From positions 19,016,354-19,080,353 of the forward strand of contig NC_045139.1 of assembly GCF_008831285.2 (NCBI RefSeq): 64,000 nt of DNA, written 5' to 3'. Position numbers and translations under genes: made by a program. Below are positions 9,681-60,508 of this stretch, one piece after another. The stretch is from Nymphaea colorata (taxonomy: Eukaryota > Streptophyta > Magnoliopsida > Nymphaeales > Nymphaeaceae). Below the pieces are notes generated by a model. That model was not told where the DNA came from. It was given only the letters and a program-made list of their open reading frames with translations, and ran no database searches. Positions within the stretch are counted from its first letter, which is position 1. Every line of letters starts with the position of its first letter.

Positions 9681-9767
9681 GGTCTTCCTTAATCGGAAGG
9701 GGACTCAGTCTCCTTTTCTTTCTAGTATCTATGTCGCTCTAATATGTAACTGGCTATAATCTATACA

Positions 9768-10170
9768 TGTTTATAGATACTAACATCACTTTTTCTCTTA
9801 ATTTAACAATAAAACAAAATAAAATGGCTCTGTCGGATCTTCGATTCAATTTAAATGGATTTGGATTCAGGTTTAAACGCGAGCGCTATTTTTTCCAAAA
9901 CTAAATAGGGAATCAGATCAGATCTGCATGGCCTTTGAGCTAAAACACTGAATGAATGGATTGAGAGGATCAAATGTAGCTGATTCCATTGAAAATCCTG
10001 TATTCATAACAATAAAATAATCATGAAGCAACAACATTTAGCACTCGAGTTTAAATTAAATCAAAATCTATTTAAATAGAATTGAAGATCCGACCCAACC
10101 ATTTTGTCTTTGTTTTATTGTCAAATTAAAAGAAAAAGCGATGTTAGTATCTATAAAAATTACAAAAAAA
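9768..10170. repeat. short inverted repeat made of the family's terminal sequence
   Basis: The left arm, about 9768-9870 (ATAGATACTAACATCACTTT...ACAATAAAACAAA...TCGGATCTTCGATT), is repeated inverted at about 10065-10165, about 190 bases away. The same sequence lies upstream of the gene copies at 43.3, 46.1, 49.45 and 56.1 kb. It therefore looks like a terminal or promoter segment of that element family, here folded back on itself. Confidence 0.7.
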
Positions 10171-24245: not shown

Positions 24246-24351
24246 GGAGACCTAGAGAGCAGCAGAGGGAGGGCTAACGGGGAGGGATGGGTTCGAACGT
24301 GGAGATGCCAACAAACAAGCTTGGACATCTCAAACACTACACAACCTTCTC

Positions 24352-35900: not shown

Positions 35901-38900
35901 GCAATATGCTGGTTATCAAGTTGATCAATCAACAGGACAAGAGAAAAAAAGAAAAGCTGTCCATGGATGTCAACCGCACTCAAAATCCTTGATGTACATT
36001 GCAATATAGTCTCAACAATTAGAGGATCTTCAGTTGCTACAAAAGCATGCTTTATTTTGTCAAGAAACATTTGTTCACTTGTCTTCCCACATGCAGCTCC
36101 ATCCACAAACAAACTATTTGATAGACGGCCATCTAAGAACCAATGGATACTTGAGCAGAATGACTGGCGAACTGTCCTTTTGTTATGAAGAAGCAAACGA
36201 TCAATAGCATGGATCCATTGAGAACTTGTACTAACCAGCCAATCTTCAGATACATGCATGAGAATACGAGACAACACCTCCACACAGGCAACTTGGACAA
36301 CCTCTGATGATCCATCAAGGAGGAACTTTAAAATGAGGCCATGCAAACCATTGAAATCAAAAACCAAGACAGACTTTTCTCTTGCAGCATGAAACAGGAC
36401 TGTATTTTTAGAAGCCTCCTCTTTTGGCTTCTTGGCTTCCTTGTCACAGGTAGGACACCAAAAACCTTTCATGATAACCTCTGCAGTATTGACACACTTC
36501 ATCTTGCCGACTTCCATATATAATTTACAGTTGCTTTTAATAACATCTTCAAAGCAGCCCAATAGGCAGGATAAATAGCCAATGCAACGAACAACCATTT
36601 CTTTAACTTGTTCACATTTATCTTGGGCTAAACTTCTGACAGTCAAGAGAAAATATGTAACTACAGTAGAGCTAGAATATGTTTCTGTGTCAAGATGAAA
36701 AGGGCACATGCAGATGAGAGTTGAAGATGTGAATAAATTATCATGTATTTCCAATTAAGCATCCAAAACACAATTGAATGAATATATTGAGATATCAATC
36801 ATAAGAACAGCTATGTTAATACAAGATACAAATGACAGATCTACCAATGCTTGCCGAGGTGAACTACTTTGAGAAGCCCCAACAGCCAGAAGGAATGCCT
36901 CCAACTATCTGTTGGTTATAATCCTAACGGCTAGTTTTTGGTTATTCCAAAAGATGATCATTACCGAATAAAGGAGTACCTTAAAACCTTAAAACCAACA
37001 ACAAATGCTAAAACACATAACATTAATCACACTTTTTAGTACACCTTGAATACTTCCAAAAAATACACAAATTTTACAGAATTATAACAATTTTAGGTCA
37101 GAAGCATGATATTCATAAGATCAACAAGATTAGCACTCGAAATGTAACCCTTTTAGTACCTTCACAAGTAAATCATATTAGCTAGCTACAGACTTCAGAT
37201 AGAGAGTACTGGGTGCATCAGGATGCCTGAGAACTAACAGTTGGTATCTTATATAGCTCCTTGAAACCTCTAAACATGAATGTCAACTGAATACATAGGT
37301 AAAACACTTGCAGTGCGTGGGAAAGAGATTTTCATCTCATACAGGGAATTTGTAGAAAACTGCACATACAAAAAGCAGTCTCAGGAGACAGATGAAAATG
37401 CTGGATTGTGTCACTTTACCACTACCTCAGGTCCTTGACTGGAAATGGTTCAGCGAAATCCAGTAAGGAATGTTTTTATTAGCTAAAAAATTTCATAGAC
37501 AAGACAAAACTAGGGACACAAAACACAATTCAGAAACAAAAGAAAGTCCCAGTACATGACAGCTTAAGTGCATTTTCTCATATCAATATGACATTGGGAA
37601 AATGATCATAATCTTTTGTTTTAACTTAAGAACATAAGCTATATGAATAAATGAATTACAAAAGAAGCATTAACAACATGATAGGAACCTAGTTATGCAT
37701 ACTGAGAAGGAAATTTTTGCTAGAAGATCTATGTAAACAAGAAACAAGCCAAGACACTTCGATTAAAAGAAAATATGGACCTGAAAAATTTAATACCACT
37801 TACTCCATTTTCTCAGATGTGTATGCTACCACACTTGGACCAGAAAAGAAAAGCATCAGCGGCACAGAGACGATGGCTTCAATTCTGACATCTTCAGATT
37901 CATCACCAAGAGCCATATCCAGAATCTTTAGAATATCATCAGTTCCCATTTTGTTGCCAATCTTGTACAGAATTTGAACAGAGAGGCATTTTGTCCGTTG
38001 AATAAAATGAACTTGACCATCTGAAAAAGAATGAGTCCACGGCAGTACAAGAATTGATGACATATCCATATTGTTGAACAGGTTTTCAAGGGCAAGATGT
38101 CTTCCAGCTCCAGGACCATCATTTGAATCCTTGGGGTTCTGCTTTTTCATACAATCTGGAGGAGAACAAAACAAGTAGACATCACCACATCAGACAGGAC
38201 AATCATAAAAACCCATATGCATACAGTAACATGTGAACTGCTAGCTCCTAGATTGTAGGTGATTGCGCACTCACACTTCTTGCTTACTTTGCAAAATCAA
38301 TATGTTGTCAACTGCTTCAAGATAGAGGGACAGATCAAACTTGATCAAATTTTCTTTTGCTGCCTGAAAGTAAAAAATGAAGATACATGTAAAGAGAAAA
38401 AAAATATCATATAAATAAACATCTTCAAAGAAGACAACTTTCTAACCTGCTCAGCGATAAAGGGAATCCAGGCATGAACTTGCTGGAACAAGCGAATGGA
38501 TAAATTGGTAACTGGATAATTGCAAAATACATTTGACAGCATGCTTAGAGCAGCTAATGCAGTTTGAGGTGATGTAAATTCAGACATGGTAACACCAGGT
38601 GTCAGAAGTTCTACAAAATCCACAAGCAGATGCTGGAAATGGTCAGCATATAACTCTTCATCAAGTTTGCATCTAAAAGGAAGTGAATTTTGTAGGAAAT
38701 TTTCAACCACAACCAAAGAAGTGGGTGGTTCTTTATTAACATTATGACCAGTGGCATTTGCTTCCACATGCATTTTCCTCCTTTTCCTCTTTAAACTTTC
38801 TGCAGTTTGAACCATTCTCTTGTTCCCTGTTGAAGAAATATGCAACTCTTTGCAAGTCGAATCCCCAGAGAAACTAGGTCCGTCATCAAGAGCTTCCCCT

Positions 38901-41900
38901 TCAATGCCACAAATACCAAGAACATCAATAGCTTTCACGATGCAATCAACCAATAGCAAGCATGGTTTTGGGGAGCACAATAATGTAATAAGGCATTCAG
39001 GCTTCCAGATATGTGGAGGGCACACATTAACCACACACATGTATGCATTGCATATTGCAACCTGCAAGATAGCAAACTATTACATTTCTAAAGCAAGTGC
39101 CAAGTTGTGAGTATAGCAAGAAACAAACAACTTATAAAATTTCTCAAAAATAAATATAAATAACAAGAGTTTCACCCTCAGATCCTGGCTTTCTGTATGC
39201 TGCAGTACTTGAGGGAAAACGTCAACCAAATATTCGGCTGTAGATTGAACAACCTCAGTCGGGCACCCAGAGTACAAAGAGAGGAGGCATGCACCAACAC
39301 ATGAATCATATTGAAGATTTCTGCAACATATGCATTAGAAAAGGAAGCAAATTGAGAAAGTTTTGCAAACCACAGTAAATTAAAGACCCTAACTGTAAAT
39401 AGAATCAAACTCAACGTATGAAGATTACAGCTCCATACGTTATAGCTTCCAGACAGCAACTACCATGTGCAGTAAGGATCTCTACAGTCCATACAATTCA
39501 ACTTGCCTGGACAACCTCACCAGCCATGTTTCCATTTCCACCCTTACCGACAGACAGCCTTTGGGCATCTCAAGCCCCTGTTTTAGGTTACCAGGTTAAG
39601 AATTTAAGACACATAATACCACTATGGTCACCACCCATGCGGAAACCGAAAAAAACCAAAATGCTGTCAAGACACTTCCACATAATAATGTGGAAAGATC
39701 AACAACGAGTTAATTTTCTTTCTACAAAACTAACCAAAAAAAAATCTAGAAAACTAACAAACAAGTTTACTGTTTACCTCTGATACTGATAGAAAGCAAA
39801 GAGTAACTGTGCTTACCAAATGAACCAACTTGTCTATTCTAACTTAAAACATTTTAACCAAGCATTAGCAAATGCTGAATAGGATACCCATTCTGAAGAA
39901 CAGAAGGAGCCAGAAGTGGTTGAATGCAGCTTTAAGAACATTAAACCATACCTGAATTTTGACCACGTTGCCTCTGCCGGACTTAAGATGGATAGAATTG
40001 AGAGAATAAGCTCTTCACTAGGAACGATTTCTGCATCCAATATTGTCGTTGCAATACGTGCAAATTCAAATAATGCCTTTTGGAAAACAATAAAAAACTT
40101 ATTATCAGTGACCTTGATAATGTGTGTTTCAGGAGTAGTTCCATAGTAGTGACACTTACCATCTGCAATGCAGCATCCCCATAACATATAAGAGAACAAG
40201 CATTAAACATGAAGGAGGACCCAATAAGTCCTTCAACATGAAGCGTGCCATCAATTAAGCATCTAGTTATTATCTTGATGACACAAGAAGCAAAAGGCTG
40301 CCACCGTGGTTCATCAGTCACATTAACTAGGATACCAGGTCCATCTGCAGGTTTGCAAGACGGTGGTATGTCACAGAAAAGATCCGTAGCACCAGAAATG
40401 GCAGAAAATGACTCACTGAAACATTTTACTGACACAGTGGAAGAAGTTGTGAAGCTAGTTTTTTCAGCATAAAATGATGCTACAGACTTCAAATCTGCAA
40501 TGAATAAACAAAAAAAATAAGAAGCAATTTCTGAAAGAAATGCAATCTCTAAATTTCAATCTTTACATTAATTGGTGCATTCTATTAGCCTCACGACCGA
40601 TTAATACATTTGTACCTTCAATTGCCAATATGGCGTCTAAGAAAAATTGTCGAAACACTTCACGATCTCCACAACGTAGAAGAGACAAAAGAGATGAAGC
40701 AGTCTCAAAAATTACACCGTGATGGCAACTAGAAATTTGAACAAGTACAATTCATATATTAGTAACTATGAAATAAGGCATACAGAACCAATAACAAGGA
40801 GAAAACTTATCAACTACAAAATAGCAGTATGCCTAAAGCATATCTCAGGCAAGAAGTTCAACCAATACCTTTACAGCTAGAAATACATGGAAGGTCTAAG
40901 TAGTAAAAAAGTGTTAGCAACACCTAGTTGAAGATAATTGTAAAATACAAGAGTAACAGGCCTAGGCATGATCCAAACATAAGCTTAAAACAATCAAACA
41001 AAAAATTGCACTACTAGATTAAAAAAAGTAAATGCAATTATGCCTGAAACCTCATTCTTGGCAATGGAAACTCACGATAAATCAAGTCTATTACTTCTTC
41101 AGGAAAATCGCAGGAAATAAAAGGCAAATCAGTAAAGCATAAACAAACATCTAATATATAGATGCTGTAGATTAGAAACTTACAAATAGGAATATTAAAC
41201 AAAATGGTCCTTAAAAGCTTAGTGTTGTAGTTTCGTTTTATGGCACTGTGAAAACTTAGATTGTTTGGTGACAACCTTTTAACTTAGTTTTGACCGTAGA
41301 AAATCAAAACACTCGGTTCGGAGATGAAAAAGCTACCTTCATTCAGCTTTTCAAGATGGCGGCGTTTTATCGGAGTTATTATCTATTGGAAATAGTTTTT
41401 GAACATCGACGATCGTAAAGACACTTGTGACGTGGTGCTAAACAGAGAAAGGGACCAAGGCGGCTTCCATCAAGAACAATAATAAACAAAGAAAGCTATC
41501 AAAAGAACTTCAATCAAGAAAGCATCAATTGCAGAATCGCATGCTGGAGCGCAATCGTCCAACGACGAAGCATCACGCACTCTCAAAATTAATAGTATTC
41601 ACAACACGCAGATGGCTCCACCTGTTTGTTTTTCTTTTCGAGAACTAGAATTTCAGAATACATAATGCGAACAATCCAGTAGAACGGCGGAAGCAGCGAC
41701 CACGAAGATGTACCTGAAAGCGGGCTCGGCGAAAAACGGCAGGATCCGACCGATAATCGGAAGAGTGTGGGACGGTTTTCCGTTGTAGAAGACGCCCGGG
41801 TAGTTCCGCGCCGTGTGCGTCAATAGCTTCAGTATGGCGATTATTTCTCTCTCCTTCCCTAAAGCGACAGAAACAGAAAACGATGGCGAAATAACGTGAG

Positions 41901-42142
41901 GCAAGACAAGAAAGGAACCTAGAGCAAGAGAAAAGAGGAAGTGGGAGACCAGAACCTGGGGAAGACGGGGAGACGTAGGAGCGGAGGAGGGTCGGGAGAA
42001 CGGATCGGAACCTCGTCTCCAAGGGATCGAGGTCGGGCTGGGACTGCGACGAAGACGACGGAGTGGAGGAGGACGACGCAGCCACGTTCTTGCAGGCGAT
42101 GCGCTCGCCGAGATCCTGCAGTAGTCCACAGAGCTCCGCCAT
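29982..42142 (-). CDS. ATR: ATR, PI3K-like checkpoint kinase, complete, 15 exons, 2762 aa
   Basis: Exons 5' to 3' on the minus strand: 42142-41956, 41858-41714, 40728-40616, 40494-40160, 40076-39952, 39320-39176, 39061-38447, 38363-38288, 38155-37804, 36635-35388, 35301-31908, 31809-31243, 31144-30521, 30442-30248, 30149-29982. All phases agree. The N-terminus (MAELCGLLQDLGERIA; ILPFFAEPAF; HHGVIFETASSLLSLLR) matches plant ATR. HEAT-like repeats and the FAT region follow. The kinase domain has FLCKPKDDLRKDARMMEF (K2450), GLGDRHGENILFD (D2600, N2605) and HVDF (D2619). The protein ends in a FATC domain with the plant signature GEMYIWWMPWF. ATR acts in the nucleus, with ATRIP, on RPA-coated single-stranded DNA in the replication-stress response. 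The length is close to the ~2700 aa of Arabidopsis ATR. One exon of 3394 nt encodes about 40% of the protein. The exon 1 donor is weak (G|GTTCTGG), and the join between 37804 and 36635 is the least certain. Confidence 0.93.
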
Positions 42143-42544
42143 GGGCGACCTCTCTCTCTCTTCTCTCCCGCGTCGGGCAATCGCGCGCGCTGCTTCCCGC
42201 GTCCCAGATAAGAACGTCACTCGAGACGCGACGCTACCCGAGGCGCGAAGTCGCTCCCCTTTTCTTTTCAAATTCGTCCGTGACCCAAAATGATTTACGA
42301 ATTCCGCTCGTATCTTACCGCGATTGACAAATACGTGCCTGAATTTTTTTTATTTTTCAAAATGAGACCATCCTGGTTGGCTCCATTTTAAGCTCTTTGA
42401 TTTTATCGGATTTAGATTCGAACGGATTTTAGAACCTCGGATCTGAGATTGGAGGTTCTAAAATCTTAAATTTTGAAATCCCTTGTTACTCCCTCGGCCT
42501 TCTCTCTCTTCTTCTTCTCTCCTGAATCTGAAATCTTTATTTCC
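42143..42544. other. ATR upstream region
   Basis: The probable ATR promoter and leader. It is AT-rich beyond 42300 and contains AGATTCGAAC/GGTTCTAAAAT-type short repeats. No confident TATA box was seen. Confidence 0.4.
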
Positions 42545-43620
42545 CAAATCACTCTCTTCTTGTTCCAAAGAATATGTTGTGATTATCAACAATATATTGT
42601 TATTGGATTTACTAACAACACTCATATCTTATTATGTTTGGTGAAACATATCAATGTGGTGTTCTTCAGCTCTTCGTTTTAAGAACATGAATTTCAAAAA
42701 CACAACATTCTTATTGTTAAACATCCTTGGAGATCCAAGTCAGATCCAGGCACTTAAGATCTAGGTCAGCATGATTTGGGCTGAATTTAAATAATGAAAT
42801 TTGTTCATTATAGTCATACCATACGAATAATGCCAAACGTAAAACATATTCTTAAAGTACCCAAAACCAATTGCAATTTATGCACATTACTTTCAGGAAA
42901 AGAAAAGAGAAGAAAAGAACGATAATGGCGCGTCGAGCAGTGAAATTTAACAACTTAAAAATTTCATACATCATGGGACAAGATTTTACAACTTGCAAAA
43001 TTTTATAAATTTCAGATCATAGAGTATTTTATCACTATGAAATCTCATTTAACAGACTAATAGGGGTGCAAATAGGGAAGTAGTAAAGAGGTTACACGAT
43101 ATTGATTCGATTAACACTGACTCGATTTGGAACCTTTTATCTGGATCTTAAAAAAAAACTGAATTGGATGAAGTCGAATTCGCATTCAGTAGATACTTTC
43201 ACAACCAATTGAATTTGAATTTAGTATTCGACTGCAATCGCATACAGATCTCATCCGATTAGTATTCAATTTTGCAAAAAAACACGTTTGGGTCTAAATC
43301 TAAATCCATATATAAAATTAAATAGAATTGAAGATCAGATCAAACCATTTTAACGTGGTTCTATTGCAAATAAAAAAAAAGTGATATTAGTATATATAAA
43401 CATCAGCAGATCATATCATCAGTTGCATATGCGAGAGAGAAGAGAGGATGATGGACTCCCCTTTCCGGCGACTAAGCCTAGCGACCAAGGAAGTTTCAGG
43501 CGTGTTAGATGTCGACAATGTCTCCTTCTCTGAGCCCTGCCGCCATTGCGTCACCAAGAAACGCCATTGCCTGCACGGTTGCTGCGGTCAGCGGAAGAAG
43601 CTCCACCTGATGACCCTTAC
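42545..43620 (+). repeat. left arm of long terminal inverted repeat (copy A)
   Basis: Its reverse complement recurs at about 55860-56870 and, partly, at 45890-46560. Matching blocks in order: TTCCAAAGAATATG, GTGTTCTTCA, ACATTCTTATTGTTAAAC (arm B: ATATTCTTCTAGTTAAAC), GCATGATTTGG, GAAATTTGTTCATTA, ATAGGGAAG.AGTAAAGAG, TTGGAACCTTTT, CAGTAGATACTT. The arm runs into the first exon of the gene copy, so the coding start lies within the repeat. The outer end is not defined to the base and no target duplication was found. Confidence 0.7.
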
Positions 43621-44814
43621 GCCAATGCTACATCCGCCGAGGGAGCCTCTACAGAGGTCGCTATCTTTTCCGGTCTGGTATGCATCGCCGCCGGAGGAGA
43701 ACCCAACCATCTTACGGGCGCAGAGCGATCTTCTCACGGTGGGACGAGTGACTGATGTCTTGGCCACCGAAACACACGTCATGGAAGCAAAAGACAGTAA
43801 GGGTGAGCCGGCGTCACCGCAGGTCGGAACGACGCCGACGCCGACTTCATCATCGGATGTTCTAGGCAGGAAAGAGGTGAGACAGCCCTGTATTTGGTTT
43901 CTTCTTTGTCGAACCGGTCGTCCTTTCACCTTCTTTGTTAGTTTCTTATCTTGAAAACGGTGTGCAATTTGCAGATGCAGCACAGGAAGGTGGGACCGTC
44001 AAGAACGAGAAGAAGGCTCTTGATGCAAGAGGTCGAAAAGGTGAAGAAGGAAGGCGGACAGAATGTCTCGCCCACGGAAAAGAATGTGCAGCTGCAGAGG
44101 ACGAATCTTGGATTGAAGGAAGATGAAAATGGAGAAAATAATACCGGGAGACTAACGCCTCCGTCGGTGTCTCGGTCATCCCAGGTAAAGCATAGAGAGA
44201 GAGAGAAGATTCTTGGTTGGTGCTTACTTAGTGCATGCTTAATTCAGATTCTTCTTCTGTTTGATAGACTTGGAAAACACCAATACTTCCAACGATGAAC
44301 ACGATGTCTCCGCCCAACTTCTTGGTCGAGAGACGGCCGGAGGATAGCAGCAGAATCGGAATTCAGCTTCCTGTTGATGAAGAAACATCATCGAACCAAG
44401 ACAATGACTCCCAACCGACAGCATCCAAGGCTGCAACTTCCGACACTGATGGCGAGAATTATCAGAAGGTAAGGAGAAACGGCTGCCCGTAGCACCACAA
44501 ATTCACAGATGCTAATCGGTATGATATAGTTATAATATGTGTAGCGCGCGTGTGCATTGCTGAGGGAGATGGACGGAAAGCTCCACCAACTGGGGAAGAT
44601 GATGGAGGAACTTGCCCTCAGAAACGATGCCAACATCTGTACAGCCGATGGGCAGCCATCCTGCCATCATAGGCGGGCGATGGCGGATGAAGCTACCATT
44701 GATTCCGCCATTGCTACCTCATCGAAGCAAGCCATGTCTGGGGAGAATCAGGAGCTTAAGCCCTCTTACTTTGTCTGCCCCTGCCCCAAATGCAACAAGT
44801 TTTACTCTGCCTAG
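43451..44814 (+). CDS. unrecognised Cys-rich protein, repeat-borne gene copy A, four exons
   Basis: Exons by comparison with copy B: 43451-43876, 43975-44184, 44268-44468, 44563-44814, all phase 0, about 362 aa. The N-terminus (VSGVLDVDNVSF) leads into CRHC-x4-RHC-x3-CC, a possible metal-binding cluster. The middle is basic and may form a helix (RTRRRLLMQEVEKVKKEGG), followed by a Ser/Thr/Asp-rich stretch. The C-terminus has CPCPKCNKFY, another possible zinc site. I recognise no family, and there are no transposase motifs. Exon 1 is intact here where copy B is frameshifted. However, the exon 4 acceptor is CTG|AGG instead of CAG|AGG, and the next AG would shift the frame. Two possible starts exist (43448 and 43451); the second matches copy B. 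Confidence 0.55.
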
Positions 44815-45870
44815 CATGTGGGAAAACTTAGTTCTTTTTTCTCCTTGTAAATGTTTTTTTGTTCTTCGAGTGTAAGAGATCGTCCATTATTGCTTTGTAT
44901 TCATCTTGCAAAAGAATTTACCACTTACAGAAAAGAGAAACACAGTATTTTAAACTTTAATATATATATCTTTTTTGGGAGGTTGATCAAGAAGCAAATG
45001 AGCACATGCCCTAGGATAATGAAGATATTGATGTTGAGGCAAATTAAAAACTAATAAAATCATAAAGCGCGACCATTCTTGTAATGTGATCAGTAAGGTA
45101 AGGACCATTTCAATAAAATTCCATCTCTTGATAGTGAACTAAGTTGCAGCAGAAATGGCGAGGTAGAGATAGACCAAGGTTCGAAAACCGGTGCATGAGT
45201 AATTTTTAGGTTAATGGAATGGATAAAACAATGACTACATCATTGGGATGCCATATGGTAGGCTCTTGTGCACTTCAATCATAAGGTTATTAAATTTACC
45301 CCATCAATAGTTCAGCTACAAACTCCTAAACATCCTCAAAGATTCTTATGAAGTGAAATTTATAATGGCATATGAGATACAACAACAAGCAATAAGATCA
45401 TTAGTGTTGTCAATGCCGGTGTGATACATGTGAAACTGTAGTAGAAGGGAAAAAGGGTTTCCAGGGCTTCTTAATCCCATAGTTTAAGTTCAAGCTGTTC
45501 AATGACATCAAATTAAATTATGTGTCATCTGCATGTTTCCTGAAAGACGGAAAAACTACTATAAAATGGCATTGGTTATCTGATATATTAGCTCAATGTT
45601 GGTGAATTGTCTGTTCAATATCTACCTCTTCATCATGCATCAGTTTATGAACAATGCATCAGTTGTATCAAATTGGGTTTCTTCTTCTCATTCGTTGAAT
45701 AATGAAAAAGATAAGTTAAGCCATATTTTTATCAGCCTGAGATTTCTTACATATGACGGCCAAACGAGAGGAACAAAGATCAATATTGAACGACCTCATA
45801 CACCGACGAATAAAAGAATTTATAAAAGGAGAAAAAGGAATAAGATTTCCACGACGACAAGTTAGGAAGA
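44815..45870 (+). repeat. 3' flank of copy A, duplicated at 50931-52100
   Basis: Shares long near-identical blocks with 50931-52100 in the same orientation, for example CATTCTTGTAATGTGATCAG, CAGAAATGGCGAGGTAG and TTCAATGACATCAAATTAAA. Copy A lacks about 120 bases near 44905 that are present at about 51015-51140. No independent gene was seen. Confidence 0.75.
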
Positions 45871-46030
45871 ATAAAGTTTGTAGCATCTGCTGCATGGGCT
45901 AGTTCGCTTCTGCGGACCGCAGCAACCGTGCAGGCAATGGCGCTTATTGGTAACGCAATGTCCGCACGGCTCAGAGAAGGAGACGTAGTCGACATCTAGC
46001 ACGGCTGAATCTTCTTTGGGTCTCGGCTTC
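45871..46030 (-). pseudogene. internally deleted minus-strand copy of the Cys-rich gene
   Basis: On the minus strand the exon 1 start region (VSGVLDVDYVSFSEPCGHC, KRHCLHGCC) is joined almost directly to sequence resembling the end of exon 4. The middle of the gene is missing. It lies at the inner edge of the right inverted arm of element A, facing the full-length plus-strand copy. Confidence 0.7.
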
Positions 46031-46560
46031 CTTGCCGAAAAGGGGACTCCATACTCTCTGTCTCAATCTCTCTCTCTCTCTCTCAAATATGCAAGTCTGC
46101 AACTGCAGATATAATCTATACATATTTATAGATGCTAACATCACTTTTTTTTAAAAAAGATGACAATAAAACAAAGATAAAATGGTTCGTTCGGATCCTC
46201 GATTCTATTTAAATGGATTTGGAATTAGTTTTGGACTCAAACGTTAATTTTTCTAGTGCTGAATACGTCATCGGGTCAGATCTGTATGCCATTTCAGTCT
46301 AATACTAAATTCAAATTCGAATTAGACGTAATTGAATTTATAATCTTATCAGATGTAGTTACTGCTTCTCTATTTACGTCCCTCATAATTAAATGAGATT
46401 TCATAGTGATAATGTCCTCTACGATCTGAAATTTATAAAATTGTGTAAGTTCTGAAACCTTGTCCCTTGAAGTATAAAATTTTGTAACTATTTGATCTAC
46501 CATCTTCTTTCTTCCTCCTTTTTTTTTCTTGAAAACTATGGACATAAAAAACAGTTGATT
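45890..46560 (-). repeat. right inverted arm of element A, truncated
   Basis: Reverse complement of about 42900-43600: TTATAGATGCTAACATCACTTTTTTT, TAAATGAGATTTCATAGTGATAAT, CTACGATCTGAAATTTATAAAAT. Relative to the arm at 55860-56870, the outer 300 bases are missing. The sequence passes near 46558 directly into DNA matching 57385 onward, so about 800 bases were lost here. Confidence 0.75.
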
Positions 46561-46800
46561 AAAGAATAACTGGAAGATGAGGCCATTTTTTATCTTTAAA
46601 AGATCTGGTTATGTACTAAAATCAGATTTCTGGATCATCTTGACGTTACCCAAAGAAAATTGTCCTACACTTGCTCACAATTGTCAGACTAATTTTGTGA
46701 CACTAATGTTGAGGTACAAGGGAAAATGAAACCTTCCTCTCTTTCCCGAAGTCGAGGGCTAATTCAGGAGGACCTTGATGATCTCATAACTCAAACACCT
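46560..46800. repeat. host flank duplicated at 57385-57620
   Basis: GATGAGGCCATTTTT.ATCTTTAAAAGA, TTTCTGGATCATCTTGACGT and GTCCTACACTTGCTC occur in both places in the same orientation. This shows the duplication includes DNA between the element and the SR45a 3' end. Confidence 0.85.
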
Positions 46801-47104
46801 TTTCAACTTAGGTGTCCAACATGAGTGCCACCTTTTGCAGTTAAAGAAGCATAGCATGAGGCTTGAACATCCGCAGTTGCGCTACATCCCTCCAAGCATC
46901 AACTGAATCTTTATAATATGACTTTAATATAAACCGGCTCAAAGATGCATAAAATAAAATCCAAGAAGGTATCAACAGCGAGCAAATAGCACTAGCAGAA
47001 GCAACTAGACAGTCCCAACAACAAAAAAATAAGAAGAATCCAACATCTTTACTGTGTAACTTAAAGAACATGGACAGCAAGAGGAAATGCATGCGTTAAA
47101 ATTC

Positions 47105-47582
47105 TTAGTCTGCCTTGAAGTCGCAAGTTTGCAAACAAGCCTTGGAAATGCTACAAGAGAAAACATTACAGCAGATATCTATATTAGGTCTGAGTTTGCA
47201 GTCACTTCTCATATCGGCGTCCATTATTTCTGTCAGGACTTCCACAAGGAGAGTAAGGAAGTGACCGCGAGCGTTCCCTTCTAGAGCGACCACCATAAGG
47301 TGATCTTCGAGGCGAGTAATCACGGCCACCTCTGTAAGGGGATCGCCTCGGTGAGCGCCTGTAGCCACCACCTCTGTACTGTAGTCGTCCCGAAAGCCTC
47401 CACGGGCTCTACTACCACGGTCATATCGATAGCCTGCCAATCAGACAACTCACTATCGAGCTAATATGCTCATAGAAAAGAAAAATATCAGAATATCTAA
47501 CGATGAACTTACTGGACTCCCGCGTGCTCTTTACGCCCAGATAATTCCCAGGAGTTGGCGTCCGAGGCCGACGTCTTCTTGA
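47105..47582 (-). pseudogene. duplicated 3' end (last two coding exons) of the SR45a gene, frameshifted
   Basis: Copies of exon 5 (47582-47513) and exon 6 (47433 downward) of the intact gene at 60.5-63.7 kb; adjacent non-coding DNA from about 46830 to 47640 is also shared. Exon 5 is intact with good splice sites. Exon 6 has a five-base insertion near 47378-47382 (CTGTACTGTAG against CTGTAG). This turns the RS/RG-rich tail into an unrelated frame that stays open to TGA at 47105. The RRM-encoding exons are absent. Upstream on the same strand lie two ARP2 exons that splice in frame, on paper, to exon 5. Confidence 0.85.
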
Positions 47583-47639
47583 CTGAAAGATAAACGAGAA
47601 ACAACACGTCACGGCTTTCACTTAGGAAAGCTCCCACCA

Positions 47640-48340
47640 ACAAAGATGTATAGAAAAATCAGAGACATACACACACACATTATGACTATTATGTGCCCAG
47701 CTTTTGAACACACACACACAAAATAACATCAAGCAAACAAATATATATATTCATTGTTTACATTCTTCAATATAAATTAATATACAGAAAATACCAAAAT
47801 AGACACAAAAAGTATCAAATACTTGTTGACACAGGTGTGCTCCCCCTTTTAGGAAAGTCCGTGTGACATAGCTAGTGTGAAACTATCAAACCCCAGCTAT
47901 GGTGCCAAACATATTCTTCCAGAATGAATAGTGAAAATACTCATAACGATGAAAACAACAATGTGTCACGTGAAAGCAATTTATTTCAAATATCACTCCT
48001 GCTACTGGCGCTATGCTATGGTTAATAATTTACCACGCTCAAATTCAGCACAATGTGATTTCTAAAAGTCTCGTGGCTTTAAGTTAACAAGCCTAGGAGA
48101 GTACCTTTAACAAATATAACTAAGAAAGTAAACTCAACAAATACTGGTAGCACACATTATGTGGATCAGATTTACTACAGTAAAGTCGTGGTAAATTCAT
48201 GTGTGTGTGTGCGAGAGAGTGAGGATCCTAATCCTGAAAGCACTGTCCAATAGAAAACTAATGGCACCAGTTGATAAATAAACATGGTATGAATTATTAA
48301 CATGTTACTGTCACAGCACGGATATAATCAAAGAATAAAA
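47640..48340. other. spacer between SR45a 3' copy and ARP2 exons
   Basis: AT-rich, with short CA repeats near 47670-47720. No downstream ARP2 exon was found here. It would be intronic if the ARP2 and SR45a pieces are transcribed together. Confidence 0.5.
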
Positions 48341-48349
48341 ACTCTTTAC

Positions 48350-48644
48350 CGGCATACGGTTGTCAAAGTTCATCTCCTGTATATCAGCAATACCTTCGCC
48401 TTCAACATCTATAATCTCCTGCATGAAACAAGTAAATAAATGAAAGGTGACTAGCATCAAAAGGCAAGACAGCAGACTGATGACATCACATCGAAATATA
48501 ATACCAGCAAAGCCATTGTATTGTTAAGACAAAAATGCAACATGACAGAACAAGGAACGAGACAAAAAGACTAACTGAAGTGAAAAGAGCTTCAGGTGCT
48601 TGGAAACGTTCTGTACCAACTTTTATGACCCTTCCATCTGGAAG
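48350..48644 (-). pseudogene. ARP2: two-exon fragment of actin-related protein 2 (ARP2)
   Basis: Exon 48644-48576 encodes LPDGRVIKVGTERFQAPEAL then FTS. Exon 48418-48350 encodes EIIDVEGEGIADIQEMNFDNRMP. Both have good GT-AG borders and phase 0. Together they match the ARP2 segment around LPDGRVIKVGTERF..LIDVEGDGMADMVFRCIQEM.IDNRM, with an in-frame loss of five residues (MVFRC). ARP2 is a core subunit of the actin-nucleating Arp2/3 complex. The rest of the gene is missing on both sides. The left arm of repeat block B begins about 260 bases upstream (48902), so this is a captured or stranded fragment. Confidence 0.85.
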
Positions 48645-48901
48645 CTGTTACAGAATAAAATTACAGAACTTCAGAAGAATATAACAAATGCCTCAACATG
48701 TTGTCTAGAGACAAATAGAATATATGCATCAATAGTTCAGTAAAATTGAAGCTAGAGGAAGAACAAGGATGGTAGTGAGAAACAAAGGAGAGCATCTTAG
48801 AAGGCAGATGTATAGAGATGCATGTCCAGACAAAATCAACGGTTATCTTTATTTTGGTCATTATTTAGGACATACAACAAAGACGGATAACCAAAAACCA
48901 T

Positions 48902-49730
48902 TAGGTCAGAATGATTAGAGCTCAATGTAAATAATGAAATTCGTTCATTATAGTCTTTCCATACGAATAATGCCAAATATAAAAAATTTATTCGTAGAGT
49001 TCCCAAAATCAACTGCAATTTATGCACAGTACTTTCAGGAAAAGACAAGAACGACAATGGCACGTCGACCAGTGGAACTTAACAACTTACAAAATTTCAT
49101 ACATCAAGGGACAAGATTTCACAACTTGCAAAATTTTATATATTTCAGATCATAGAGTATTTTATCACTATGAAATCGCATTTAACTATTTGGGGTGTAA
49201 ATAGGGACGTAGTAAAGGGGTCCCATGATATTGATTCGATTAACATTGACTCGATTTGGAACCTTTTAGCTGGATCTTAAAAAAAAATTGAATTCGATGA
49301 AGTCGAATTCGCATTCAGTAGATACTTTCATAACCAGTTGAATTTGACTAGAGTATTCGACTGCAATAGCATACAATTTGAATTTAGTATTTTGCAAAAA
49401 ACACGTTTGGGTCTAAATCTAAATCCATATATAAATTAAATAGAATTGAAGATCCGATCGAACCATTTTAGAGTGGTTTCATTGCAAAATTAAAAAAAAA
49501 AAGTGATATTAGAATATAAACATCAGCAGATCATATCATATGAGAGAGAGAGAGAGAATGGACTCCCCTTTCCGGCGACTGTGGCTAGAGACCAAAGAAG
49601 TTTCAGGCGTGTTAGATGTCGACAATGTCTCCTTCTCTGAGCCCTGCCGCCATTGCGTCACCAAGAAACGCCATTGCCTGCACGGTTGCTGCGGTCAGCG
49701 GAAGAAGCTCCACCTGATGACCCTTACGCC
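48902..49730 (+). repeat. left arm of block B, direct copy of 42762-43620
   Basis: Begins at TTAGGTCAGAATGATT (A: CTAGGTCAGCATGATT) and stays alignable with block A through the first exon of the gene copy. The outer ~200 bases of arm A are absent here. The ARP2-bearing DNA joins at this point. Confidence 0.85.
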
Positions 49731-50930
49731 AATGCTACATCCGCCGAGGGAGCCTCTACAGAGGTCGCTATCTTTTCCGGTCTGGTATGCATCGCCGGCG
49801 GAGGAGAACCCAACCATCTTACGGACGCAGAGCGGTCTTCTCACGGTGGGACGAGTGAATGATGTCTTGGGCACTGAAACACATCATGGAAGAAAAAGAC
49901 AGTAAGGGCGAGCCGGCGTCACCGCAGGTCGGAACGACGGCGACGCTATCTCGAGGCAGGAAAGAGGTGAGGCAGCCCTGTATTTGGTTTCTTCTTTGTC
50001 GAACCAGTCGTCCTTTCACCTTCTTTGTTAGTTTCTTATCTTGAAAACGGTGTGCACTTTGCAGATGCACCACAGGAAGGTGGGACCGTCAAGAACGAGA
50101 AGAAGGCTCTTGATGCAAGAGGTCGAAAAGGTGAAGAAGGAAGGCGGACAGAATGTCTCGCCCACGGAAAAGAATGTGCAGCTGCAGAGGACGAATCTTG
50201 GCTTGAAGGAAGATGAAAATGGAGAAAATAATCCTGAGAGACAAACGCCTCCGTCGGTGTCTCAGTCTTCCCAGGTAGCGCATAGAGAGTGAGAGAAGAT
50301 TCTTGGTTGGTGCTTAGTTAGTGCATGCTTACACCTGTTTCTTCTGCTGTTTGATAGGCTTGGAAAACGCCAACACTTCCATCGATGAACACCATGTCTC
50401 CGCGCAACTTCTTGGTCGGGACACGGCCGGAGGATATCACTAGAATCGGAATCCAGCTTCCTGCTGATGAAGGAACGTCATCGGACCAAGGCAATGACTC
50501 CCAACCGACGGCATCCAAGCCTGCAACTTCCGACACTGATGGCGAGAATTACCAGAAGGTAACGAGAAACGGCTGCCCGTAGCTCCATAAATTCATAAAT
50601 GCAATCGGTTTGATATAGTTTTAATATATGTAGCGCGCGTGTTAATTGCAGAGGGAGATCGACGGAAAGCTCCTCCAACTGGGGAAGATGATGGAGGAAC
50701 TTGCCCTCCGAAACGATGCCAACATCTCTACAGCCGATGGGCAGCCATCATGCCATTATAGGCCGGCGATGGCGGATGAAGGTGCAACGGCAGCTTTGCG
50801 ACCACCATCTGCCATTGATTCTGTCATTGCTATGTCATCGAGGGAAGCCATGTCTGGAGAGAATCAGGAGCTTGAGCCCTCTTACTTTGTCTGCGGCTGC
50901 CCCAAATGCTACAAGTATTACCCTGCTTAG
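49558..50930 (+). pseudogene. Cys-rich repeat-borne gene, copy B, frameshifted in exon 1
   Basis: Exons 49558-49966, 50065-50274, 50358-50558, 50652-50930. All four splice junctions, including the exon 4 acceptor CAG|AGG, are good. Exon 1 has lost two bases near 49882 (ACACATCATGG against ACACACGTCATGG in copy A) and 15 bases near its end. The frame stops shortly after ETHHGRKRQ and exons 2-4 are out of phase. Exons 2 and 3 have exactly the lengths seen in copy A (210 and 201 nt). Exon 4 is 27 bases longer, encoding an Ala/Pro-containing insert. The C-terminal motif is CGCPKCYKYYPA. Confidence 0.8.
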
Positions 50931-51188
50931 CATGTTGGAAAACTTAGTTCCTTCTTCTCCTTGCAAATGTTCTTTTGTTCCTCGAGTGTAAGAGATCGTC
51001 CACTATTGCTTTGTATTCATCTAGTTTAGTCACAAATCTCAGGCTGATAACAATATGTTCTGTTTACCATTATTCAGTGAATGAGAAAAGAACCCCTATT
51101 TGATGCAACTGGTGCATTCCAAATTCTCCACGTCATCTTGCAAAAGAGTTTACCACTTTTACAGAAAAGAGAAATACAGTATTTTAAA

Positions 51189-51195
<7 letters not shown>

Positions 51196-51238
<43 letters not shown>
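51196..51238. repeat. (TA)n microsatellite
   Basis: About 21 TA units. At the same place in block A (around 44960) there are only about five, so the tract expanded or contracted after the duplication. Confidence 0.95.
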
Positions 51239-51240
<2 letters not shown>

Positions 51241-52074
51241 GGTTGATCAAGATGCAAATGAGCAGATGCCCTAGGATAATGAAGATCTTGACGTTGGGGC
51301 AAATTAAAACTAATAAAGCGCGACCATTCTTGTAATGTGATCAGTAAGGTAAGGACCATTTCAATAAATTTCCATCTCTTGAGAGTGAACTAAGTTGCAG
51401 CAGAAATGGCGAGGTAGGGACAGACCAAGGTTCGAAAACCGGTGCATGAGTAATTTTTAGGTTAATGAAATGAATAAAACAATGACTACATCATTGGGAT
51501 GCCATATGGGTAGACCCTTGTGCACTTAAATAATAAGCTTAATAAATTTACCCCATCAATGGTTCAGCTAGAAACTCCTTAACGTCCTCAAGATTATTGT
51601 GAAGTGAGTGAAATCTATAATGGCATATGAGATACAACAATAAGCGATAAGTTCATTAGTGTTGTCAATTCCGGCGCGATACATGCTAAACTGTAGTAGA
51701 AGGGAAAAAAGGTTTCCAGGGCTTCTTAATCCCATAGTTTAAGTTCAGGCTGTTCAATGACATCAAATTAAATTATGTGTCATCTACATGTTTCCTGAAA
51801 GACGAAAAAACTACTTTACAATGGCATTGTTCGTCTGATATATTAACTCAATGTTGGTGAGTTGTCTGTTCAATATCTACCTCTTCATCATGCACCAGTT
51901 TCTGAACAATGCATCAGTTGTATCAAATTGGGTTTCTTTTTCTCATTCATTGAATTATGAAAAACAAAAGTCAACTCACATTTTTATCAGCATGAGATCT
52001 CTTGCATATGACGACCAAATGAGAGGAACAAAGAGTAATAGTGAACGACCTCGTACACTGACGAATAAAAGAAT

Positions 52075-53085
52075 TTATAAAAGGAATAAGATTTCCAACA
52101 ACGACAAGTTCGGAAGAATAAAACTTGCAGCATCTACTGCAGGGGCAGACGACGTGAAAGGGCTTCGGCTTTTGATTACCAACAAACATGGCTTCCCTAG
52201 ATGAAGTGGCATTAATGGCCGACACAATGGCAGATGATGGCAGCAAAGCTGCCGTTGCATGGCCGACCAATGATGGTAGGATGGCTGCCCATCGGTTGTC
52301 GGAATGTTGGCATCCTTCCTAAGCGTAAGTTCCTTCATCATCTTCCTCAGTCGGTGGAGCTTCCTTCGATCTCCCTCAGCAATATACACGTGATGCCAAC
52401 CAGACATATTAAAATCATCTCAAACCGATAATAAGCATTTGTAAACTTGGTGCTGCTACTGGCAGCCATTTCTCGTCACCTTCTGGTAATTCTCTCGCCA
52501 TTAGCATCGGCTGGAATGCTACCAGTTGGGAGTCGTTGTCTTGATCCCAGGATGTCCCTTCATCAACAATAAGCCGGATCCCTGATTCTGGTGCTATCCT
52601 CCATGCCTGTCTGGACGAAGAAGTAGGTCGGCCACATTGTGCTCATCGGTGAAATTATCGGACTTTTCCAGTCCATCAAACAGAGAAGATGCTAAATTAA
52701 GTACGTCCTAAAGAAGCACCGACCCAGAATCTTTGCTCTCTCTCCAGTCCTTGAGAAGACGGAGAGGCCGCCGGAGGTATTAGTCTCCCCGGTTTATTTT
52801 CTCCAGTTTCATCTTCATTAAGCCAAGAATCGTCCCTTGCATCTCCACGTTCTTTTCCATGGCCGAGACATTCTGTCCGTCTTCCTTCTTCACCTTTTCG
52901 ACCTCTTGCATCGAGAGCCTTCTTCTGGTTCTTGACGGTCTCACCTTCCTCTGCTGCATCTGCAAAGAGCGGACAGTTTTCAAGATCCAAACACACTACC
53001 AAAAAAAGTGAAAGGACGACTAATTCCATGAAGAAGAAACCAAATACAAGGTTGCCTCACCTCTTTCCTGCCTCAAACATCCTGA
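52075..53085 (-). pseudogene. minus-strand copy of the Cys-rich gene, exons 4 to 2 and end of exon 1
   Basis: On the minus strand: exon 2 (about 52975-52780, PSRTRRRLSMQEVEKVKKE), exon 3 (about 52680-52450, decayed) and exon 4 (about 52400-52126, LRKDANIPTTDGQPSYHH, VCPCSRCCKFYSS). It is cut off near 53085 inside exon 1. It faces the plus-strand copy B across about 1.1 kb, forming a gene-sized inverted repeat. Confidence 0.8.
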
Positions 53086-53299
53086 TGGCGTCGCCTTATA
53101 CCTTTTATATTATTAATTCTATTTTGAGTACAAAATTTATCTTTGGTTTTCAGCTAGAAAAATTAAATTCATTTGACCGAATTTATTAAAAATTGGTTAA
53201 CGTCTATATCATACAGAAATCTGATTTTAGTACAACCAAGTTCTTTTATTGTCCTCACTCGGTTGCATCGCTGATCTTGCCTCTATACTGCTAATTCTT

Positions 53300-54500
53300 G
53301 CTGCTTTGCTTTGCCAAGAAGCACCATTGCCTGCACGATTGCTGCGGTCAGCCGAAGAAGATCCATCTGATGACCTTTCCGCATTCTCACATCCACAGAC
53401 GACCTTTCTACAATGGTCCATCACATTTCTGGACTGGTATGCATCGCCGCCGGAGACTAACCCGAGCATCTTGAGGACGCAGAGCGATCTTGCCTAGGTG
53501 GTACGAGTGAATCACGTCTTGGGTAGTGACAGACACGTCGTGGATGTAAGGATGACCCCGGCGACACCACATATCGGAACGACTCTACGGCAACGCCATC
53601 ATCCGTTATTCAAGGCAAGAAAGAGGTGAGCTCCCTTGAATCTCGTTAATTTCATCTTTGTCGAACGAGCCCTCCTTTCACATTCCCTGTCACTTACTTT
53701 GAATCTTGGAAACGGTGAGCTCTTTTTACCTGCACGAGAGGAGCTCAGAAAGTTATAAACCTTTCTAGATACAAGAGGTCGAAAAAGTGAACCAGGAAGA
53801 CGGGCAGAATGAAGTTGCTAAGGAGATGGACTAAGAGATGCGGGGGACGAATCTTAGGTTGAAGGAAGACGAGAATGGCAAAAATAGTCCAGGGAGACTA
53901 ACGCCTTTGGTGGTGTCTCCTTGTTAGAACGAGAGATCCAAAACATAATTAATATAACGTGCGAAGGTGGGCTTTCCTTAAGATAAATGTAAAGTGAAGC
54001 TCGTAAAGCGGGAGGACGGTTGTGCTAAGGAAGGATCCTCTCGAGCTTCTCTTGAAGATAAAGATGGATTTAAACAGGAAAGCTTGCGCACTATCCAGAT
54101 AAGGAAATCGGTCCAGTAAAGCTGTTAGCCACAAGGATAACGATAAAGATTCTGTTAAACCTCTCCCTTATCTTATCTAATGCAAAGCAAAATGGCACAA
54201 TGACAAGTCATGGAAAGAGGAAAAAGTCCTCTACCTTAGGGACTGTACCTTGTTAATTTTAGTACACGATGTGTCCGGCTGACTTCTTGGTCGAGACACG
54301 GCCGGAGGATAGCATGTACATAAGCAAAACCAGAATCCAGCTTCCTGTTGACGATACGACATTGATGGCCAAGATTATCAAAAGCTAACGATGAAGCTTA
54401 CCTTCCAGAATGGTGCGAAAATCCACACAGCATAAGGCAATAATAGCGGATGAAGCAGTGACGACAGAGCACTGCGACCACCATCTGCCTTTGCTTTTGC
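53300..54500 (+). pseudogene. plus-strand decayed copy of the Cys-rich gene
   Basis: Starts within exon 1 (CLHDCCGQPKK-like coding from 53330, WYASPPETNPSILRTQSDL), then an exon 2 remnant near 53765-53880. An exon 3 remnant lies near 54270-54390 (ADFLVETRPEDS), and an exon 4 remnant at 54400-54500. About 330 bases of unrelated DNA interrupt it at about 53925-54255. Many frameshifts. Confidence 0.7.
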
Positions 54501-54529
54501 TGTTACTACTTCATGTATATATTTGAAGA

Positions 54530-54847: not shown

Positions 54848-55181
54848 TACTCTTGCTACCCAAGAGGGTGTTTGGTTGATGCAACATGTCGTTACAGGAA
54901 CGCTCTGTCCTCGGAAATCGATGACAGCCATGGATAAGAACAACGTGGAGGACAAAGTGTTCGAGGGTGTTTGGAGAACAGAAAAAACTGTCCTTACTTG
55001 TTACACCCCTAACCCTCGAATCCGATGCCATACCCCCCTCTCCAAACTCCTTTTTTTTCCTCCATTGGTCGAAAGTCGCTTTCTCTTCGATCAAACGGTC
55101 TCACTCTTACTCTCTCTTGATCACAGGCTACACTCTCACGCAGGTAATCATCTCTCTCTCTCGTGACAGTTCGCCACTGGC

Positions 55182-55208
55182 CGCTCAAGAAGGGAACGCT
55201 CGCGGTCA
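55182..55208 (+). repeat. 27-bp match to SR45a exon 6
   Basis: Identical to the RS-encoding part of SR45a exon 6 (near 60577-60603, opposite strand) at 26 of 27 positions. It encodes RSRRERSRS and is flanked by a CAG acceptor-like and a GAG|GTAAGAG donor-like sequence. It could be a captured scrap or a chance match between RS codons. Confidence 0.35.
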
Positions 55209-55209
55209 A

Positions 55210-56010
55210 CGAGGTAAGAGGGCTTTGCCTCCTCATTCTGATCGGCAAACATGGCTTCCCTATATGACTTATAGCAATGACAGAAGCAACAGATGGTGGT
55301 CGCGGAGGCGCCGATGTCAGCTGCGACCGCTGGCGTATGATGGCAGCATGACTGCCCATCGTTTGTAGGTATGTATGTTTGCATCGTTCCGGAGGGTAAA
55401 TTCATCCATCATCTTCGCCAGTCGGTGGAGCTTTCCTTCGATCTCCCTCAGCAATACACACGCACCATTCTCCATTGTGAAACATTCTGTCCGTCTTCCT
55501 TTTCGAACTCTTTCATCCAGAGCCGCCTTCTCGTTCTTGACGGCCTCATCATCTTATCATGGTTTCCAAGATGCAAAGAAAGTGACAAGGAAAGTGAAAG
55601 GACTGCTAAAAGAAGAACTTAACCAAACTCAATTCTGTCTCACCTCTTTCTTTCCTCGAATAATATCTGATGACGGCGTCGCCATCGGAGTCGGTCCAAT
55701 ATGCGGTGTCGTCTACTCGCCCTTACAGTCTTTACCCAAGAAGTCATTCACTCTTTCCACCAACACAAGATCGCTCTGCGTGATGGTCACGTTCTTCTCG
55801 GGCGGCGATGCATGCCAGACCGGAAAAGAGAGGATTCGGTGGCGGATGTGGCATTGGCGTAAGGGTCATCAGGTGGAGCTTCTTCCGCTGACCGCAGCAA
55901 CCGTGCAGGCAATGGCGCTTTTGGTAACGCAATCTCCACACGGCTCAGACAAGTCGACATTGTCGACATCTAACACGCCTGAAACTTCTTTGGTCGCCGG
56001 AAAGGGGACT
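55210..56010 (-). pseudogene. minus-strand copy of the Cys-rich gene at right arm of block B
   Basis: On the minus strand: exon 1 start at about 56000-55840 (KEVSGVLDVDNVDLSEPCGDC), later exon 1 and exon 2 remnants to about 55480, and exon 4 remnants at 55405-55220 (NDGQSCCHHTPAVAADIGA). Frames are broken. It lies within the inner part of the right inverted arm. Confidence 0.75.
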
Positions 56011-56870
56011 CCATGCTTTCTCTCTCTCACACACACACACACATATGCACGCATGCAACTGCAGATATAATCAATACATATTTATACATGCTAACATCAC
56101 TTTTTTTTAAAAGAAATTACAATAAAACAAAGATAAAATGGTTGGGTCGGATCCTCGATCCTACTTAAATGGATTTGGATTTAGTTTTGGACTCAAAACG
56201 TTAATTTTTCTTGATCGATCTGTCTGCCACTTCAGTCTAATACTAAATTCAAATTCGATCGGTTGTGGAAGTATCTACTGAATCCGAATTAGACTTAATT
56301 GGATCTATAATTTTATCAGATGTAGCGAAAAGGTTCCAAAATCGAAACAGTATATTTCACGGGATCTCTTTACTGCTTCCCTATTTACATCGCTAATAAT
56401 TAAATGCGAGTTCATAGTGATAATATCCTCTACGATCTGAAATTTATAAAATTTTGTAAGTTTTAAAACATTGTGCCCCGACGTGTAAAATTTTGTAACT
56501 ATTTGATCTATTCTCTTCTTTCCTTCTTTTTTCTGTCCTGAAACTTATGCACATAAAAAGCAGTTGGTTTTGGTTACTTAGAATCTGTTTCATGATTGGC
56601 GTTATTCATATGATGCAACTAATAATGAACAAATTTCAATGTTTAATTAAGTCCTTCCAAATCATGCAAACCTTGATTCCGATACTCCCGGAGGACGTTT
56701 AACTAGAAGAATATCGTGTTCTTGAAATTTGAAGAACACCATATTCTGTTTCAATGAACATTACAAAATTATGGACGCGTTACTAAATCAAGGAATAAAA
56801 TATTATACATAATGGCAGCATATTCTTTGGATCAAGAAGGCAGTGCATTGGCAATATATATTTGAAAAAC
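55860..56870 (-). repeat. right inverted arm of block B
   Basis: Reverse complement of 42545-43620 and 48902-49730, as shown by the shared blocks listed for the left arm. It is the only right arm that retains the outer part (56565-56870) and so pairs best with the outer left arm of block A, about 14 kb away. Confidence 0.75.
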
Positions 56871-57266: not shown

Positions 57267-57889
57267 ATTTTTTGTCGATTCACAATGGACTCGGCTAAAC
57301 CATGAATGAATGAACTCAGTGGATCATCAACATCCCAGCTGGTTCCATGAAAACCCTCTATTGTATAACATTAAGATTATCATGAAAGACAATAAAGAAT
57401 ATCACGAAGATGAGGCCATTTTTCATCTTTAAAAGAACTGGTTATATACTGAAATCAGATTTCTGGATCATCTTGACGTTACCAAAGAAAATTGTCCTAC
57501 ACTTGCTCCGAATTGCCAGACTAATTTTGAGACACTAATGTTGAGGTACATGAAGAAAAAAAAAAAACTTCCTCTCTTTCCCGAAGTCCAGGGCTAATTC
57601 AGGAGAACATGGGTGATCTCATTCTCTTTCCCGAAGTCCAGGGCTGGCCGAGAGCTACACCTGCGCCGCAGGCAGGCGGCCTCAGCCAAGGCTGGCCGGT
57701 GCCACTGTCAATTGACATTGGCTTCAAGCCTTCTTTAAATTTCCCCCCTCGAGCGACCATCTTTTAACACGAGATTTCAGAAGCCTAAAAAAATAAGATC
57801 TTTTCTAAAACACTGTTAATTAAGCTGGAAACATCATGTTTGAAGCAGTCAAACCGTCAATTTAACCCAAGTGCTTTTCAAATTTTTTA
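57267..57889. other. non-coding, partly duplicated at 46560-46800
   Basis: 57385-57620 matches block A. 57630-57720 is a GC-rich patch of unknown origin. No gene was seen. Confidence 0.5.
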
Positions 57890-59964: not shown

Positions 59965-60508
59965 TTAAGGCGTCCAAATTCCTCTGACGTACCGTAATTA
60001 GATATTTTGCAAAAAAACCTATAAGGAATCTTCAATTTCAGGTCAAGCAAGACCGTGATTGCGATTTAGAGTCCGAAGCAACAGAAACTATAACCCAGGA
60101 AAAGAACGGTTTCAATTAAATGAAACATCATGGACTAAGCTCGAACGCTTAAGTGCCATTGAAGAAACAAAAGGTGGAAACTGAAGCAGCCACATACGAT
60201 ATTTCTCACAATCTTACGAAAACATAGTAAAAAATATATTATGGGAACAATTTCAAACCAAACAGGAGCGAGGGGGAGGGAGGGGGATCTTGAAGCACTA
60301 GCAGAAGCCAACTAGAGAGTCCCAACAACAAAAAAAAGGAGAGAATCCAACATCCTTACTGTATAACTCAAAGAACATGGACAGCAAGAGGAAATGCATC
60401 TGTTAAAATTCTTAGTCTGCCTTAAAGTAGCAAGTTTGCAAACAAGCTTTGAAAATGCTACAAGAGAAAACATTACAGCAGATATCTATATTACGTCTGA
60501 GTTTGCAG
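59965..60508. other. SR45a 3' UTR and downstream DNA
   Basis: 60290-60508 is also present at about 46960-47200, as part of the duplicated SR45a 3' end. No separate gene was seen. Confidence 0.6.

Follow-up and report, generated by a model that had tools for sequence, protein, structure and literature searches.

The locus and its gene copies

The window, i.e. the whole 64-kb stretch of DNA that was analyzed (C2:19016354-19080353), contains seven copies of a Cys-rich gene, designated A to G, of which only copy A is intact. The copies and the neighboring genes are listed in Table 1. The ATR kinase gene probably starts near 42.2 kb, judged by the start of the protein, with its 5' end directed towards the copy A upstream module.

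Table 1. Positions of the gene copies, their parts and neighboring features. Decay was scored against copy A as stops plus indels of <60 nt not divisible by three.
Feature	Position	Strand	Description	Decay against copy A
Copy F	9004-9930	-	decayed; exon 1 joined to mid-exon 3; start codon lost	2 stops + 8 indels (10)
Ornithine/diaminopimelate/arginine decarboxylase	22950-24251	-	long single ORF of 434 aa (Pfam)	
ATR kinase gene	30503-42200	-	M-HEAT_ATR, FAT, UME and PI3_PI4_kinase in two ORFs (Pfam)	
Copy A, upstream module	42762-43440	+	TATATAAA near 43392	
Copy A, whole gene	43451-44814	+	four phase-0 exons, GT/AG introns	
Copy A, exon 1	43451-43876	+	142 codons; Cys/His cluster at codons 30-45	
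Copy A, exon 2	43975-44184	+	basic SRTRRRL patch	
Copy A, exon 3	44268-44468	+		
Copy A, exon 4 with stop	44545-44814	+	C-terminal VCPCPKCNKFY	
Copy G	45773-46560	-	tail-to-tail with A; ATG not in the frame of the remainder	0 stops, 2 indels
Duplicate of 60294-60943 (92.8%)	46988-47639	-	between copies G and B	
Copy B	49558-50930	+	four-exon layout of copy A; exon 1 frame-shifted; exon-4 acceptor moved	1 stop, 1 indel
Copy D	52022-53097	-	tail-to-tail with B; most of exon 1 missing, including its start	1 stop + 9 indels (10)
Copy E	53301-54529	+	decayed; start of exon 1 missing	6 stops + 13 indels (19)
Copy C with upstream module	55163-56863	-	decayed	1 stop + 8 indels (9)
RRM_1 ORF	61298-61612	-	Pfam	
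Unlinked paralogue	C2:32864118-32865253 (L001 4618-5753)		intact; three phase-0 exons, 315 aa	0 stops, 1 frame-changing indel

The original prediction of a gene with four phase-0 exons was borne out in copy A, where all introns have GT/AG sites and the spliced 368-aa frame is open throughout. The exons are 426, 210, 201, and 270 nt long, each divisible by three, and a second ATG is found at 43448, 3 nt 5' of the start ATG at 43451. The copy A protein has both the N-terminal CRHC-x4-RHC-x3-CC cluster and the C-terminal Cys motif (CxCxxC) that had been described.

The two direct copies that had been claimed, A and B, were confirmed; they lie 6.1 kb apart, and 42762-44906 matches 48902-51022 at 88.6%. 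The predicted protein of roughly 360 aa fits copy A and not copy B, in which exon 1 is 409 nt instead of 426 nt (17 nt shorter), so that the frame shifts and is stopped after 115 codons (ORF end 49902). A TAA is present after the old exon-4 acceptor site in copy B; the copy would therefore need a new acceptor 18 bases further on. An acceptor region resembling that of exon 4 of copy A is present in copy F and at the unlinked paralogue. Copies B, C, F, and G share segments of the copy A upstream module, as does the region at C2:32.66-32.76 Mb.

The five further decayed copies that had been claimed were identified as C, D, E, F, and G. Judged by alignment coordinates, exon 2 is gone from copy F. 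An internal deletion in copy G fuses exon 1 to the C-terminal motif; we considered this copy as an intact mini-gene and rejected the idea because its ATG is out of frame with the rest.

Relatives in the genome and in databases

The genome searched comprised 407.8 Mb in 783 contigs. Copy A DNA gave at least 13 matches, with E values from 0 to 1.2e-8 and thus far beyond chance, all on contig C2: in the window, at C2:32.864 Mb, and, as a 194-bp fragment, at C2:14.368 Mb. Copy A with its flanks gave at least 26 matches, the upstream part alone at least 17, and the downstream part alone at least seven, every listed one again on C2. Among the matches listed, the flanking DNA recurs in the window and near 32.66-32.76 Mb, with one 54-bp match at C2:7.35 Mb. 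The copy A protein gave at least 32 matches up to E = 10; among those listed, one on C12 (E 5.2) and one on C2 (E 6.8), both weak, lie elsewhere. All listed matches of the paralogue protein (at least 18) fell within the known places of the family. A 79-residue block of the paralogue gave at least four additional weak matches (E 2.9-4.5) at C2:32.75, C2:32.76, C5, and C10. The matches listed thus suggest that the gene family is restricted to one chromosome, as far as this is testable.

The paralogue at 32.864 Mb has exons of 396, 273, and 276 nt with GT/AG splice sites and an open frame, and its protein is 53% identical to that of copy A; intron 2 is missing, as is much of exon 3. Since its own frame is open, the single indel scored against copy A (Table 1) would be an alignment effect or compensated. 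Among the matches listed, copy A and this paralogue are the two with open frames.

In six stretches at C2:32.66-32.76 Mb (L002-L007), the upstream module is partly present, at 66-86% identity to the window; among themselves, the stretches are up to about 97% alike. A DNA-profile search found weak exon-1 relics in L004, L005, and L006 (E 5.8e-6, 6.9e-7, and 7.3e-8, respectively), and tblastn of the paralogue matched residues 51-84 in L004 (E 0.004) and residues 56-83 in L005 (E 0.58). A fourth relic in L002 was not counted, as its E value of 0.013 missed the inclusion threshold and its strand was opposite to that of its module. A partial screen for hidden intact genes, with ORF lists for L002, L003, and L006, three-frame readings of L002 and L004, and, for each of the six stretches, six-frame or DNA-profile searches, yielded exon-1 relics only, in three of the six. 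Since upstream modules and exon-1 relics occur together there, the region probably represents an earlier cluster of this gene that has since decayed.

The absence of a known domain, as originally stated, held across Pfam, NCBIfam, PHROGs, PDB sequences, and viral contigs. A Pfam search of the copy A protein up to E = 10 returned no family, and the same search of the paralogue returned only CENP-Q at E = 0.23, which misses the cut-off. The best values were E 0.032 in NCBIfam and E 0.025 in PHROGs, each for one of four rows, and E 0.77 in PDB sequences, none of them significant, and the viral contigs searched contained no relative. Topic searches of the literature, which are ill-suited to finding such a gene, returned nothing on the family, and we know of no relative of this domain-less gene.

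Cys residues spaced x2, x6, x3 (CX2CX6CX3C) mark the LOB domain of the LBD transcription factors. Copy A has this spacing, whereas in the paralogue Ser takes the place of the fourth Cys and the spacing is x2, x6, x4. With no match to the LOB-domain profile in either protein up to E = 10 (Pfam) and the motif absent from the paralogue, we rejected membership of that family. Four aligned rows are identical at C30, C33, C40, H32, H39, and H42, and both copy A and the paralogue retain CxCxxC. A structure model of exon 1 was uninformative (mean pLDDT 36.4). Reading by eye, we noted two Cys/His clusters, a basic SRxRRRL patch, and a helical-looking C-terminal stretch. With low confidence, we suggest that the protein may be mostly disordered and may act as a metal-binding nuclear adaptor or regulator.

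Origin of the copies

Self-comparison of the window showed that 42762-45899 and 48902-52146 are direct duplicates, each consisting of a sense gene followed by the end of an inverted copy placed tail-to-tail (A with G, B with D). The inverted orientation of copies is thus accounted for by local tail-to-tail duplication. The flank of copy G (46560-46787) is 89% identical to that of copy C (57393-57622); despite this, the copies themselves (45907-46560 and 55882-56569) are only 74% alike. The similarity of A and B is uneven: 95.6-96.9% from exon 1 through intron 1 to exon 2 (43450-44150 and 49557-50239), 90.0% upstream, 88-90.7% from intron 2 to exon 4, and 92-93% downstream, a pattern that may represent a gene-conversion tract. 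In a tree of eight copies, A and B were split from the rest at 100, and the other splits had values of 45-60.

The block at 60294-60943, which has a duplicate between copies G and B, sits 0.35 kb downstream of the RRM_1 ORF. This block probably forms the 3' portion of the RRM gene, and DNA of a neighboring host gene has thus probably been duplicated together with the family.

The original prediction left open whether the gene was a captured host gene or an accessory protein of the repeat that carries it, and the host-gene half of that proposal fared better. A transposable element bringing its own flanks might carry the gene as cargo or as an accessory gene; this idea draws on the observation that modules up- and downstream travel with the gene, also at C2:32.66-32.76 Mb. 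Against it, there was no dispersal over chromosomes, as all 13, 26, 17, and 7 listed matches were on C2 with nothing significant elsewhere, and sequence next to an RRM gene forms part of the duplicated blocks; 'carried by a repeat' is therefore not a fitting description. Nor could the 'inverted-repeat elements' be upheld: at seven chosen sets of unit ends, no terminal inverted repeats exceeded shuffled sequence (longest exact inverted match 7-10 nt against means of 7.6-9.0 in 100 shuffles, exact matches only). A search for an element enzyme, which covered copy A, the paralogue, and six other ORFs of the window, found no Pfam family in copy A and only the weak CENP-Q match in the paralogue. Also against element cargo, near 32.7 Mb, three of the six module stretches carry an exon-1 relic, which fits tandem gene units. 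As an accessory gene of a mobile element, the family would be unimportant; that reading fails, and given the results on dispersal and on end repeats, we rejected a transposable-element origin as very unlikely.

The tail-to-tail pairs A/G and B/D also raise the possibility that the cluster is an RNA-silencing locus, in which read-through would produce double-stranded RNA as well as siRNAs directed at copy A, in the manner of the soybean chalcone-synthase (CHS) I locus, whose inverted CHS repeats give rise to siRNAs. Exact 21-mers are common to copy A and the inverted copies C (60), D (12), G (8), and F (4), and the longest exact run is 67 nt. The soybean locus has inverted gene repeats that non-allelic recombination has reshaped (PMC6710647), which resembles the present inverted gene copies in a short region with segmental duplication. 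However, the arms there are identical 10.91-kb repeats (PMC6710647), whereas those of the present cluster are interrupted by indels and only about 69-92% alike. Moreover, only four 21-mers of the paralogue recur in C, and D, G, F, and E contain none, and Rfam at gathering scores gave no match over 40-60 kb. We therefore consider a silencing locus unlikely. A still more specific version, in which a new plant-specific family with a paired N-/C-terminal Cys/His metal site has a cluster beside ATR that silences its own working copy, is highly improbable; if it were true, the gene and a source of RNA targeting it would evolve together.

Constraint and interpretation

The dN/dS check proposed for the copies was run, and the outcome did not support purifying selection once it was calibrated on pseudogene pairs and neutral simulation. 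The ratio between copy A and the paralogue was 0.61 (bootstrap 0.46-0.79, 310 codons) and, in a second alignment, 0.72 (0.51-0.95, 286 codons), which is no lower than that of pairs with pseudogenes: 26 other scored pairs, each with at least one decayed copy, gave 0.56-0.90 (the pair D-G was too short and was left out). Neutral simulation at kappa 2-2.5 (estimate 2.0-2.4) gave 5-95% ranges within 0.66-1.06, so that 0.61 lies just below the neutral range and 0.72 inside it. Amino-acid constraint is thus weak or unproven.

These values, and an intron that is as similar as the exon (identical sites in A and the paralogue: 79/98 in intron 1 and 301/396 in exon 1), also fit a reading in which every copy is dead, A and the paralogue included, their open frames being leftovers. 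However, both frames survive despite a dS of 0.42-0.60, and neutral drift is unlikely to leave such long open frames at this divergence: of 2000 neutral runs simulated with 0.2 changes per site, 0.15% left copy A free of stops and 0.7% the paralogue, although with 0.1 changes per site the values rise to 2.9% and 7.1%. Copy A also keeps its start codon, splice sites, and TATA. In an alignment of the TATA and start region, from which D and E were left out as they lack that part, TATAAA was found in six of seven copies (the row of the paralogue stopped short of its own TATA) and ATGGA in six of seven (F being the exception). We regard the death of all copies as rather unlikely; the frames of A and the paralogue have probably been kept, under an amino-acid constraint that is weak or unproven.

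The reading that we favor, and consider probable, is a small host gene family, on one chromosome as far as testable, which arose by segmental duplication and inversion and is subject to birth-and-death turnover, with A and the paralogue open and the rest pseudogenes. Local segmental duplication and inversion would have amplified the family, producing the tail-to-tail pairs A/G and B/D, and one duplicated block is shared with the DNA beside the RRM gene. A and the paralogue keep their open frames, and the other copies in the window are pseudogenes. Copy A and the 32.864-Mb paralogue would be expressed; more tentatively, the two short Cys/His clusters might bind a metal, and the basic patch and the C-terminal helix might serve a role as a nuclear adaptor or regulator.

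Orphan plant gene clusters that form by tandem or segmental duplication have local copies in mixed orientation, pseudogenes, fast change, and no known domain. The present family resembles them in its mixed-orientation local copies, its many pseudogenes, its fast change, and its lack of a known domain, with several local copies of which part are intact and part decayed. It differs in that the same contig also carries an intact paralogue at an unlinked site, and in that sequence next to an RRM gene was included in the duplications. Thus, it is interesting as an orphan and unsurprising as a kind, and we read it as a candidate lineage-restricted, weakly constrained, and fast-changing gene family rather than part of a mobile element. 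If expressed, it would be a domain-less plant gene in birth-and-death turnover, with an open copy beside the gene of a DNA-damage kinase and another at an unlinked site, and it would offer a compact case of how lineage-restricted genes hold their frames open under little amino-acid constraint.
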